Shown here: positions 43,241 to 45,831 of the stretch, in pieces
How positions within the stretch are numbered: position 1 is the stretch's first letter
How the letters are laid out: each line of letters begins with the position of its first letter
DNA from: Gemmatimonadaceae bacterium
GTDB lineage: Bacteria; Gemmatimonadota; Gemmatimonadetes; Gemmatimonadales; Gemmatimonadaceae
NCBI GenBank assembly: GCA_020852815.1
Contig: JADZAN010000002.1
Coordinates: 248,001-312,000, forward strand
Length of the DNA: 64,000 bases
Direction of reading: 5' to 3'
Notes under the pieces: model-generated
What the model saw: the letters and a program-made list of their open reading frames with translations, nothing else
The model's database searches: none
Told to the model about the DNA's origin: nothing
Position numbers and translations under genes: made by a program

Positions 43241-43462
43241 ATGGGGACTCGCCTACAGACCTACGACGGCCCGGGAATCACCGTCACTTTCGACCCGACG
43301 ATCTGCCGGCATACCGGCATTTGCGTGCGCGGACTGCCGGCGGTCTTTGACGTGCGTCGCAAGAAGTGGATCGACGTCGATGCCGACTCGGCCGAGGCAA
43401 TCGCCGCGCAGGTGGCGCGCTGTCCGTCGGGGGCGTTGCAGAGCGTGCGCCGCGAGGAGTAA
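43241..43462 (+). CDS. Small divergent 4Fe-4S mono-cluster protein (Fer4_19 type)
   Basis: 73 residues from ATG at 43241, with an AGGAG ten bases upstream. The sequence VTFDPTICRHTGICVRGLPAVFD and a later VARCPSGALQSV give three spaced cysteines in the CxxxxxC...CP arrangement of the divergent single-cluster ferredoxin domain, which often sits beside or within CDGSH proteins. It probably shuttles electrons to an unknown partner. A terminator hairpin follows the stop. Confidence 0.82.
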   Translation: MGTRLQTYDGPGITVTFDPTICRHTGICVRGLPAVFDVRRKKWIDVDADSAEAIAAQVARCPSGALQSVRREE

Positions 43463-43475
43463 CCGCGCGCGTTGG

Positions 43476-43500
43476 GGCGACGGACGAGGCATCCGTCGCC
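43476..43500. terminator. Terminator hairpin between convergent genes
   Basis: GGCGACGGA (43476-43484) pairs with TCCGTCGCC (43492-43500), a perfect 9-bp stem with a 7-base loop. It lies 14 bp after the Fe-S protein stop and 54 bp before the end of the convergent DUF4142 gene. No T run follows, so efficiency is uncertain. Confidence 0.55.
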
Positions 43501-43553
43501 CGCGCATGCCGCTTCCGTCAGCCGCAACGGTGCGACGCTCGGACCTCAGGTGA

Positions 43554-44087
43554 TCATTGCCCCGCCTTGCTCGCCAGCTGCTTGGCCATGTCGTCGGCCG
43601 CGCGCCGGTGTGCCTCGAAGGCCGGCGCCACCTTGATCACCAGCGCCTTCAACTCCGCGTTCTGGATGGCCGGAAGGAGCGTCGAATTGACCGCGGCGAT
43701 CACCCCGGCGTGGAACGACTCCTCGTGCGCAAGGAAGGCCCGATCGAATTCGGCCCCGTGAAGCGCGCGCAGTGTGGTCATGGCCGCTGCGTGGGCACGC
43801 GCAGCCGTGTCATCGGCCGGCGGGGTCGGCGTCACGCCTAGCTTCCTGGCCAGGTCGCGCCCCATCTGCCGTACCTGCTCGTGATCGTGCACCAGCATTG
43901 CGCCAAAGGCGCGGACCTCCTTCGACGCCCCTCGCTCGGCGGCGAGCTTGCCGGTCTCGATATCGGCGGTGTTGGCGGCGTCGAAGATGGCCACGATAGT
44001 GGCGTCGTCGAGCGGGGGCGTGACCGAGTGTGGTGCAGCGGGAGCCAGAAGGACGGTGGCGGCCAGTGCAATGGATTGAATGAGCAT
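43554..44087 (-). CDS. DUF4142 secreted protein
   Basis: 177 residues with a Sec leader (MLIQSIALAATVLLAPAAP). The rest is helical: ATIVAIFDAANTADIETGKLAAERG, VRAFGAMLVHDHEQVRQMGRDLA, and a ferritin-like bundle with conserved His and Glu (HDHE, AHEESFHAGVI), characteristic of the DUF4142 family. It is a periplasmic or extracellular protein of unknown function, sometimes linked with stress. It is divergent from the cysteine-bearing regulator, with an AT-rich operator in the shared gap. Confidence 0.82.
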   Translation of the reverse strand: MLIQSIALAATVLLAPAAPHSVTPPLDDATIVAIFDAANTADIETGKLAAERGASKEVRAFGAMLVHDHEQVRQMGRDLARKLGVTPTPPADDTAARAHAAAMTTLRALHGAEFDRAFLAHEESFHAGVIAAVNSTLLPAIQNAELKALVIKVAPAFEAHRRAADDMAKQLASKAGQ

Positions 44088-44168
44088 GGGGCTTCTCCGA
44101 CGCGAGGGGGATAAAGGATGTGCGATCGCCGAACGATCAGTGTGCGCTGAACCTTCAGCGTGAACACC

Positions 44169-44196
44169 AATAAGTCAATGATTTATTTGACTTATT
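44169..44196. promoter_or_regulatory. Operator: 10-bp perfect inverted repeat in an AT-rich island
   Basis: AATAAGTCAA (44169-44178), an 8-base spacer, and TTGACTTATT (44187-44196) form a perfect palindrome. It overlaps a TTGACA at 44196-44201, 16 bp before GATATT (44218-44223), a likely promoter for the regulator gene at 44293. A second small palindrome GACAA-A-TTGTC lies just beyond. The local sequence is about 70% A+T inside a 67% G+C window. The natural reading is an autoregulatory site for the adjacent regulator, possibly also controlling the DUF4142 gene. Confidence 0.75.
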
Positions 44197-44292
44197 TGAC
44201 AAATTGTCTCGGTCGACGATATTCCGCGTAGCGCGACACTGCCCGTCCCGCTGGAGCGAAAGACAGCAACCGCAACGACTTGAGGCTTGACG

Positions 44293-44910
44293 ATGGCAGG
44301 CGGAACACGCGGAATGATCCTGGCGCAGCTCCGACGCGGAAACCGCACGGTCGATGAACTGGCGGCTGCGGTCGGCACCACGGACAACTCCGTTCGGTCG
44401 CACCTGGCGACGCTCGAACGCGACGGGCTCGTGCGGGTCGAGGGGAGGCGCCGCAGCCCCGGAGCGGGGAAGCCGGCGGTCCTCTACGGCGTGGATCCCG
44501 CGGCGGATGTCGCCCTGTCCAAGGCGTATCCCGCGGTGCTGGTGGCGCTGGTGGAGGTGCTCGTCGACACGTTGCCGGCGAACGCGTCGCAGGCGCTCCT
44601 CAAGGCGGTGGGCGAGCGCCTCGCGCGCGCGGCTGGCGGGGAGGCGCGCGGCACTCGGGAGCAACGCGTTGAGGCCGCGGCGTCGGCGCTGGTCTCGATG
44701 GGAGGCGATGTCGAAGTCGTGCCGTCGCCCGGCGCCCTCACCATCCAGGGCTACGGATGTCCGCTCGCCAGCGCGGTTTCCAGTCGTCCGGAGGTCTGTA
44801 CCGCCGTCGAGGCGTTCGTGGCCGATGTGACGGGAGAGCCGACGCGGCAATGCTGCGACCACGGCGAGCGCCCGCGCTGCCGCTTTGTCATCGGCGAGAA
44901 GAAGGCCTAG
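44293..44910 (+). CDS. ArsR/DeoR-like winged-helix regulator with C-terminal cysteine cluster (SufR-like)
   Basis: 205 residues from ATG at 44293. The N-terminal winged helix reads MILAQLRRGNRTVDELAAAVG with TTDNSVRSHLATLERDGLVR as the recognition part and a KPAVLYGV wing. A helical middle is followed by cysteines in IQGYGCPLA, PEVCTAV, RQCCDH and RPRCRFV. Their spacing resembles the Fe-S ligands of SufR-type regulators, which sense Fe-S status or oxidative/nitrosative stress. The likely operator lies about 97 bp upstream (44169-44196). The sensed signal is inferred. Confidence 0.75.
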   Translation: MAGGTRGMILAQLRRGNRTVDELAAAVGTTDNSVRSHLATLERDGLVRVEGRRRSPGAGKPAVLYGVDPAADVALSKAYPAVLVALVEVLVDTLPANASQALLKAVGERLARAAGGEARGTREQRVEAAASALVSMGGDVEVVPSPGALTIQGYGCPLASAVSSRPEVCTAVEAFVADVTGEPTRQCCDHGERPRCRFVIGEKKA

Positions 44911-45057
44911 AAACCGCCTGATGGCTGCTCGCGGCGAAACGGGCGCCCCTCAGCGCCCGCGCCGCCACGCTCCGAACGGTTGCGTTAGATTGCCCGTCGC
45001 CGGAGTCGGCGAGTCCGCCTCCCGCACGACAAAGCTGCACCTTCCCGCCTCCCTTCC

Positions 45058-45831
45058 GTGACGTTCCTCGAACGCCTGCAGGACTCGTTCGCTCAGCTGG
45101 CCGAGATCGTCCCTGCACTCGCCGGGGCGCTGGTCATCCTGTTCGCCGGCTACCTGGTGGCGAAGCTGGTGGAGAAGGGGAGTGAGCGTCTACTCCGCAA
45201 GCTGCACCTCAACCAGTGGCTCGAGCGTGGCGGAGTGCTGGATGCCGTTGAGCGCACCGGAACGCACTTCAACCCCACGCGCGTGGTGGGGAAGGTGCTC
45301 TTCTGGTTCGTGATGTTCGCGGTCCTGATGGTCGCGGCCAATGCGTTAGGCATGGAGTCGCTCGCCTCGGTCTTCGCCGAGCTGGTGGGCTACATCCCGT
45401 CGCTGATGTCGGCGATCGTCATCCTGATCGTCGGCATCGTCCTCGGTCGGTTCACGGGCGGACTCATCCTCGCGTCTGCTGGAGCGGTGCAGGGCGGCCC
45501 CACGCTGGCGCGCATCGGGCGTTGGATGGTCGTGGTCCTGGCCGTCTTCATGGCGCTGCAGGAACTCGGCATCGCCAGCGACATCGTCACCACGGCCTTC
45601 GCGATCCTCTTTGGCGCCGTGGCCCTCGCGCTGGCCTTGGCATTCGGGCTCGGCAACCGCGAACTGGCCGGCGAGGTGACGCGCGAGTGGTATGCGCGCT
45701 ACCGCGCCGAGCGCGACGCGATCGAGCGCGAGGTCGTCAAGCGCGAGGAGCAGGAAGACGCGGAGATGCTCGCCGAGGACCGCACGGAAGAGATGCCGAC
45801 CTCCGGCATCCCGCAGTCGGCGCCGCGTTAG
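45058..45831 (+). CDS. Membrane protein of the small-conductance channel-like TM-helix family
   Basis: 257 residues from GTG at 45058. Five or so hydrophobic helices are visible: VPALAGALVILFAGYLVAKLVE, VLFWFVMFAVLMVAANALG, YIPSLMSAIVILIVGIVLGRF, MVVVLAVFMALQELG and AFAILFGAVALALALAFGLG, which ends in GLGNRELAGEV as in MscS-related TM-helix repeat proteins. A charged cytoplasmic tail follows. No large beta domain as in true MscS is present. Probable osmotic or channel function; uncertain. The stop is a GTTAGG hexamer. Confidence 0.78.
   Translation: MTFLERLQDSFAQLAEIVPALAGALVILFAGYLVAKLVEKGSERLLRKLHLNQWLERGGVLDAVERTGTHFNPTRVVGKVLFWFVMFAVLMVAANALGMESLASVFAELVGYIPSLMSAIVILIVGIVLGRFTGGLILASAGAVQGGPTLARIGRWMVVVLAVFMALQELGIASDIVTTAFAILFGAVALALALAFGLGNRELAGEVTREWYARYRAERDAIEREVVKREEQEDAEMLAEDRTEEMPTSGIPQSAPR

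Follow-up and report, generated by a model that had tools for sequence, protein, structure and literature searches.

The palindrome and its flanking genes

The window, that is, the whole stretch of 64,000 nucleotides that was analysed (contig positions 248001-312000 of a genome of 5.38 Mb), carries a palindrome between a leftward gene for a DUF4142 protein and a rightward gene for a regulator. The features of the locus are as follows:

43554-44087, minus strand: gene for a 177-aa DUF4142 protein (PF13628, 101.8 bits, above the gathering cut-off of 27)
44150-44178, minus strand: candidate DUF4142 promoter, -35 TTGACT (44178-44173), 17-nt spacer, -10 AAGGTT (44155-44150), read from a pattern over 54 promoters
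44169-44196, no strand: putative operator AATAAGTCAA-N8-TTGACTTATT, from the inverted-repeat reading and conservation at orthologue promoters
44196-44205, plus strand: additional half-site of the right arm, TTGACAAATT, 9 nt after the first, by direct reading
44196-44223, plus strand: regulator promoter TTGACA-16-GATATT, 10 of 12 consensus matches
44293-44910, plus strand: gene for a 205-aa regulator with an ArsR-type winged helix at the N-terminus and a V4R-like C-terminal part (about residues 77-205); an alternative start is the TTG at 44287

The full palindrome reads AATAAGTCAA-TGATTTAT-TTGACTTATT, with arms at 44169-44178 and 44187-44196, as an earlier note, made from the letters, had described it: a perfect 10-bp inverted repeat with an 8-nt spacer. 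It is the only match to itself in the window at up to three mismatches, with none in 100 shuffles. Perfect 10-bp repeats as such are common enough over 64 kb (10 in the window at spacers of 0-20, against a mean of 4.0 in 12 shuffles), but local shuffles of the 70-nt island gave one in only 2 of 3000. The palindrome sits at the AT-richest spot of the window: all 16 stretches of 30 nt and all nine of 40 nt with at least 75% A+T start within 44163-44181, and the strikingly high local A+T that the note had pointed out amounts to 71% over 44169-44223 versus 32% overall (GC 68%). Repeats like the additional half-site are present in some orthologue promoters. The genome search that the note had proposed was run, and returned one operator site only in the window's own genome, both with the pattern at up to three mismatches and with the profile at E<=10.

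The good promoter which the palindrome was said to overlap is there, and the overlap is one base, the first base of the regulator promoter being the last of the operator; no other promoter was found by the scan of 43500-45100. Read towards DUF4142, 54 promoters share TTGAC(A/T) and, exactly 17 nt further on, a -10 element with A at its second position in 38/54 and T at its sixth in 40/54. In the window, the -35 of this promoter falls inside the left operator arm, which likely doubles as the -35 of the divergent gene, so that a protein on the palindrome should block that promoter. The -10 of the window's own DUF4142 promoter is weak and was missed by the same scan, a point counted against the proposal made below.

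Conservation across the class

The orthologue set comprises 64 loci, namely 61 (window included) of the 80 family matches above 87 bits, two of the 80 being pieces in one genome (G096), and three named contigs with a regulator relative, which are Gemmatimonadaceae or Gemmatimonadetes; as one locus appears twice, as L007 and as L048, the set holds 63 independent loci. Conservation in front of orthologues had been set beforehand as the refuting test of the operator, and it was observed: a site scoring at least 14/20 at spacer 8 occurs in 55/64 promoters (window included), any other spacer reaching at most 30/64, and spacer 8 scores best among the 26 spacers compared (0-25) in 51 loci. At every position of the left core GTCAA, 54 or 55 of these 55 sites agree, and the base inside this core is G in 39 of them. 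A selection of 40 sites was hand-picked from those scoring at least 15, with L005, L043, L051 and duplicates left out; 20 loci were hand-picked from matches below 71 bits. Of 179 family genomes, 49 carry the pattern AATWWGTCAA-N8-TTGACWWATT at up to two mismatches, and none carries the reversed control. Two observations are counted against the operator: spacer 17, not 8, gives the best second half-site in four loci, and a recognisable site is absent from 9/64 family loci and from 6/22 loci outside the family.

Outside the family, 23 loci were sampled from elsewhere in the order and class, and for 22 of them there is upstream DNA. Of these, 16/22 keep a site scoring 10 bits or more, and 17/22 a divergent DUF4142 or cytochrome gene, in one case at a distance of 1.5 kb. 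The loci lacking such a divergent match are L182, which begins at the contig end; L187, with a cut DUF4142-like gene, and L246, with a Rieske-flavin type gene instead (both by eye); L253, where DUF4142 lies upstream on the same strand; L259; and L260. To sum up, sequence comparison shows that the putative operator, the regulator and a divergent DUF4142 or di-haem cytochrome gene are kept together in most of the loci examined across the class. The existence of an operator-regulator-DUF4142 unit is strongly supported, and conservation at orthologue promoters supports the palindrome as the likely operator of the regulator behind it, as the earlier note had suggested.

Partner genes

The DUF4142 identity of the divergent gene, and the suggestion that it may be under the same control, have both gained support. 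Such a gene lies within 1.4 kb of the regulator, on the divergent side, in 55/64 orthologue loci, and the shared site would provide its -35. The protein has a signal-peptide-like N-terminus (by eye) and, in a model predicted from three sequences (mean pLDDT 83), folds into a bundle of four helices whose closest structures are DUF305 (3bt5, Z 17.7) and CopM, a copper protein (5fej, Z 17.4), with bacterioferritin and rubrerythrin next at Z about 16. The predicted bundle is what it has in common with DUF305/CopM and with ferritin-like proteins; unlike them, it has a conserved set of its own, D42, D68, H69, D115, E122, H126 and H160, each with at most one exception among the 53 to 56 aligned sequences and likely to be a metal site. 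A sequence search of the PDB gave nine matches, all at E >=0.26, which were set aside. A passage of PMC11317620 describes DUF4142 as a ferritin-like protein with putative export to the periplasm, and the domain appears in an expression table of PMC12914303; titles and abstract openings of the DUF4142 papers in the literature searched name no regulator for it. Convergent with the gene lies a small ferredoxin gene of the Fer4_19 type, a divergent 4Fe-4S mono-cluster family (43241-43462; PF06902, 81 bits).

Nine orthologue loci are without a divergent DUF4142 gene. Four have a di-haem cytochrome gene (L045, L091, L092, L096), one a Rieske-flavin reductase gene by Pfam (L069) and one a cupredoxin-like gene by eye (L074), and two stop at a contig edge (L070, L079). 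The remaining locus has a secreted-looking protein in the place of DUF4142, with no Pfam match at E<=0.01 (L006:3235-3840). Twelve of the 64 loci hold a Rieske-flavin reductase gene, in 11 cases on the divergent strand, a clustering having picked up nine; elsewhere a gene intervenes, such as the cupredoxin gene between regulator and DUF4142 in L072 or a GTP-cyclohydrolase-like gene in L059 (by eye).

The pattern scan returned 17 sites outside promoters of regulators of the 64-locus type, all of which were inspected. Ten, L144 included, are directly upstream of genes of a single family, encoding a secreted-looking protein some 415 aa long that carries two CxxCH motifs; L136 stands before another DUF4142/regulator pair and L147 before a suf-linked paralogue. 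In two genomes the site falls at the beginning of a TetR-like gene (L132 at 2544, L134 at 1595; by eye), and three sites (L141, L145, L146) adjoin no assignable gene; that these five are not seen before redox genes is counted against the proposal made below. Pfam recognises a RoxA-like cytochrome c in the two-CxxCH family, above the cut-off in one of the four proteins scanned, and among solved sequences di-haem cytochrome c peroxidases come closest (best E 6.2e-5). Matches at E<=1e-20 are present in 44/179 family genomes; the window's own genome has none at E<=1e-5.

The cytochrome test drew on 56 rows of a protein search made regardless of any site; nine rows were discarded as weak or partial, a tenth, from a gene at the start of a contig, was dropped, and two that stand for a single gene were counted once, which leaves 45 loci. 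For 20/45 cytochrome genes a profile of the orthologue sites reaches 10 bits or more somewhere from 450 nt upstream of the gene to 60 nt into it, a score seen at 2 of 465,131 background positions. Seventeen of these 20 genes are away from the regulator; the other three (L220, L221, L223) adjoin it, and their site is therefore the shared one. In five further loci the cytochrome gene comes after DUF4142 on the divergent side, in three it adjoins the regulator without a good site, and in 17/45 there is neither a site nor an adjoining regulator, which is counted against the proposal. As the comparison shows, many genomes have the candidate site before a cytochrome gene that lies away from the regulator. 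That the site is kept before genes of exported proteins, probably engaged in metal or electron handling, suggests a little-known stress response.

The regulator and its relatives

The regulator has five cysteines in its C-terminal part (156, 169, 187, 188 and 196) and none elsewhere, so that the count of about five in the earlier note was exact. C156, C169, C188 and C196 are invariant in 64/64 family loci, with the spacing C-X12-C-X18-C-X7-C; outside the family, four cysteines are present in 23/23 loci, 22 with the same spacing, and L253 has one residue fewer between the first two. A V4R fold is predicted for the C-terminal domain: in a model from four sequences (mean pLDDT 80), residues 77-205 align with the V4R domain of PoxR over 128 residues at Z 11.3 and rmsd 3.0, followed by MopR (Z 11.2), TRAPP TPC6 (11.2) and DmpR (11.1). 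The V4R sequence profile gave no match at E<=10 in five family C-terminal domains and one suf-linked paralogue, nor did the aromatic-sensor profile in the five family domains. The profile of BcsD, a fold neighbour, matches 31/56 regulator members at E<=1 (best 3.3e-6), and a PDB search with the regulator profile yielded, among the 60 of 95 matches listed, HTH proteins and a few weak matches of BcsD or other types.

The likeness to the Fe-S sensor SufR put forward in the earlier note holds as kinship and fails as identity. The SufR model TIGR02702 matches 56/56 scanned orthologues at E<=0.1 (best 9e-17), and the window regulator scores 42 bits over residues 9-179, and 41.5 bits in a second scan, where the cut-off is 178.8. 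Homology over most of the length, an HTH domain with C-terminal cysteines, a first pair spaced C-X12-C and a CAA-N8-TTG operator geometry are common to both. In contrast, the cysteine spacing departs from the C-X12-C-X13-C-X14-C given for SufR in a passage of PMC8593673; the window site is CAAT-N6-TTTG rather than the CAAC-N6-GTTG that PMC8593673 and PMC13421787 ascribe to SufR, the operators of this family having mostly G and not C as the inner base; and the partners are DUF4142 or cytochrome genes, not suf. In a maximum-likelihood tree (whose program warned of long branches) all 64 window-type proteins are set apart by a branch with 100/99 support, and the 21 suf-linked proteins by another (99/94). 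SufR itself was rejected as the identity of the regulator on the sub-threshold score, the other cysteine spacing, the lack of adjoining suf genes and the separate clade. The regulator belongs to a sister family of SufR and probably acts as SufR or MsvR does, as an autorepressor reading redox or metal stress through its cysteine/metal site.

MsvR, an archaeal HTH and V4R autorepressor, is described in a passage of PMC3729527 as having C206, C232 and C240 that modulate redox-dependent binding and an operator TTCG-N7-9-CGAA. The present regulator resembles it in combining an HTH with a V4R domain (here by predicted fold only), in a C-x7-C pair and in an inverted repeat within its own promoter. 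It differs in being bacterial, MsvR being a methanogen protein, in its extra C-X12-C pair and in the conserved GTCAA-N8-TTGAC, as opposed to the operator quoted from that passage. The MsvR model NF053755 matches residues 5-50, the HTH part only, at 15 bits with a cut-off of 220, and on this score MsvR was rejected. For DmpR, the zinc ligands named in a passage of PMC7264223 are Cys151, Glu172, Cys177 and Cys185; a C-x7-C ending is thus common to the DmpR zinc site, the MsvR cysteines and C188/C196. The predicted fold over about 128 residues and this zinc-site pair bring the regulator close to the DmpR, MopR and PoxR sensors, whereas the 205-aa protein has no AAA+ domain, would have a cysteine and not a glutamate as fourth ligand, and has no V4R profile match by sequence.

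Proposed action and alternative readings

Taken as a whole, the proposal is that the palindrome would be the operator of the downstream regulator, an autorepressor and repressor of DUF4142 with a sensing cysteine site, and this is regarded as fairly probable on comparative grounds. A regulator dimer would bind both arms of the palindrome, covering the DUF4142 -35 in the left arm and abutting the -35 of its own promoter, so that both genes would be repressed. The four-cysteine site would be carried by the V4R-like domain, and the DNA would be freed when a bound cluster (Fe-S being likelier than zinc) is damaged, lost or reduced, or when the thiols are oxidised. Upon release, the exported ferritin-like protein would be made, against oxidants or metals, and in relatives also cytochrome, Rieske-flavin and cupredoxin proteins; the visible regulon of the window's genome would be DUF4142 and the regulator itself only. 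What the regulator would sense, and whether Fe-S or zinc would fill its site, I infer from the conserved cysteines and the predicted fold, ranking Fe-S first, with zinc plus a ligand or a thiol switch as rivals. An Fe-S cluster is plausible, and the predicted V4R fold allows for zinc too. Counted against the sensing step are the lack of a V4R Pfam match in the five family C-terminal domains and the fact that solved V4R relatives bind zinc and aromatics.

With the same operator and regulator, the four cysteines might instead hold a structural zinc, with the V4R pocket responding to a small organic compound as in DmpR, MopR and PoxR. The alignment of the C-terminal domain with the PoxR, MopR and DmpR sensor domains and the agreement of C188-x7-C196 with the C177-x7-C185 of DmpR (in the passage of PMC7264223) speak for such a sensor; yet the other pair has the C-X12-C of SufR, whose model matches every member scanned, the recurrent partner genes encode proteins of redox or metal type, and neither the V4R nor the aromatic-sensor profile finds the five C-terminal domains, which makes this reading unlikely. 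Cysteine oxidation could also abolish DNA binding by itself, in a cluster-free thiol switch like that of MsvR, whose C232-x7-C240 has the same spacing as C188-x7-C196 and which is itself a redox-dependent autorepressor acting through V4R cysteines (passage of PMC3729527). The invariant cysteines are four rather than three, though, two of them at the SufR spacing, and the MsvR model is matched weakly; a switch of this kind is held to be quite improbable.

At the other extreme, the palindrome might be a chance or structural feature of an AT-rich stretch between divergent promoters, and no regulator site at all. Perfect repeats of this length number 10 in the window, and AT-rich promoters favour such words; but the letters and the spacing of the site are kept over the class, the reversed pattern is absent from the family genomes and the site stands before cytochrome genes away from the regulator, all of which leaves very little room for chance.

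Returning to the repressor proposal with its cysteine site, a wider conjecture can be attached to it: SufR-type regulators would be V4R proteins whose zinc site turned into an Fe-S site, one branch of which was recruited in Gemmatimonadota-like bacteria for extracytoplasmic defence against oxidants or metals. This is offered tentatively, as something rather doubtful, its odds being lowered by the lack of a V4R profile match in the C-terminal domains. If true, that defence would comprise DUF4142, the di-haem cytochrome, the Rieske-flavin reductase and cupredoxin, and DUF4142 would gain its first regulatory context. The hypothesis joins two sensor classes that are treated apart, V4R and SufR, which no paper in the literature searched was found to bring together. 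The locus itself offers, in a poorly studied phylum, a testable regulator-operator pair with its regulon, and a regulatory context for DUF4142.

Suf-linked paralogues and look-alike operators

Of the 23 paralogue loci read, 21 are suf-linked, with the sufB start 0.66-0.82 kb from the regulator start. Their cysteines lie at 0, +13, +38 and/or +40, and +41, with none at +32 in the 23 paralogues; the first, second and last nearly coincide with those of the window type (0, +13, +41 versus 0, +13, +40). The suf-linked pattern agrees with what a passage of PMC6034842 gives for SufR of M. tuberculosis, which depends on C203, C216 and C244 but not on C242; the cysteines that the review PMC13421787 names in Synechocystis SufR (C164, C171, C206) are at odds with C-X12-C. 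The window's genome has a suf-linked paralogue as well (L148, G000:C39:58000-72000; 112 bits to TIGR02702), upstream of sufB with 0.78 kb between regulator start and sufB, and with the right half of the operator alone recognisable. Given the separate clades and this paralogue in the same genome, these bacteria keep a suf-linked SufR along with its sister, each with look-alike operators.

The exact SufR operator CAAC-N6-GTTG stands before 5/21 suf-linked paralogues, and the suf-linked site of L147, AATTCGTCAACGGTTTCGTTGACCTATT, reaches 25.7 bits with the window-type operator profile. In L147, L229, L232 and L244, all suf-linked, the operators have half-sites in common with the window type (44169-44196), the chief difference being an inner base C..G in place of mostly G..C/T. 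This base is a possible specificity switch between the two paralogues, and operators with the same half-sites and another inner base pose a clean specificity question. A third group of paralogues, L149 (G000:C15:160000-176000) and L245, has cysteines at 0, +13 and +41 and adjoins Mrp/PaaD-like genes in L003 (by eye); L245 carries TTTGTCAAGG...CCTTGACAA, with a wider spacer.
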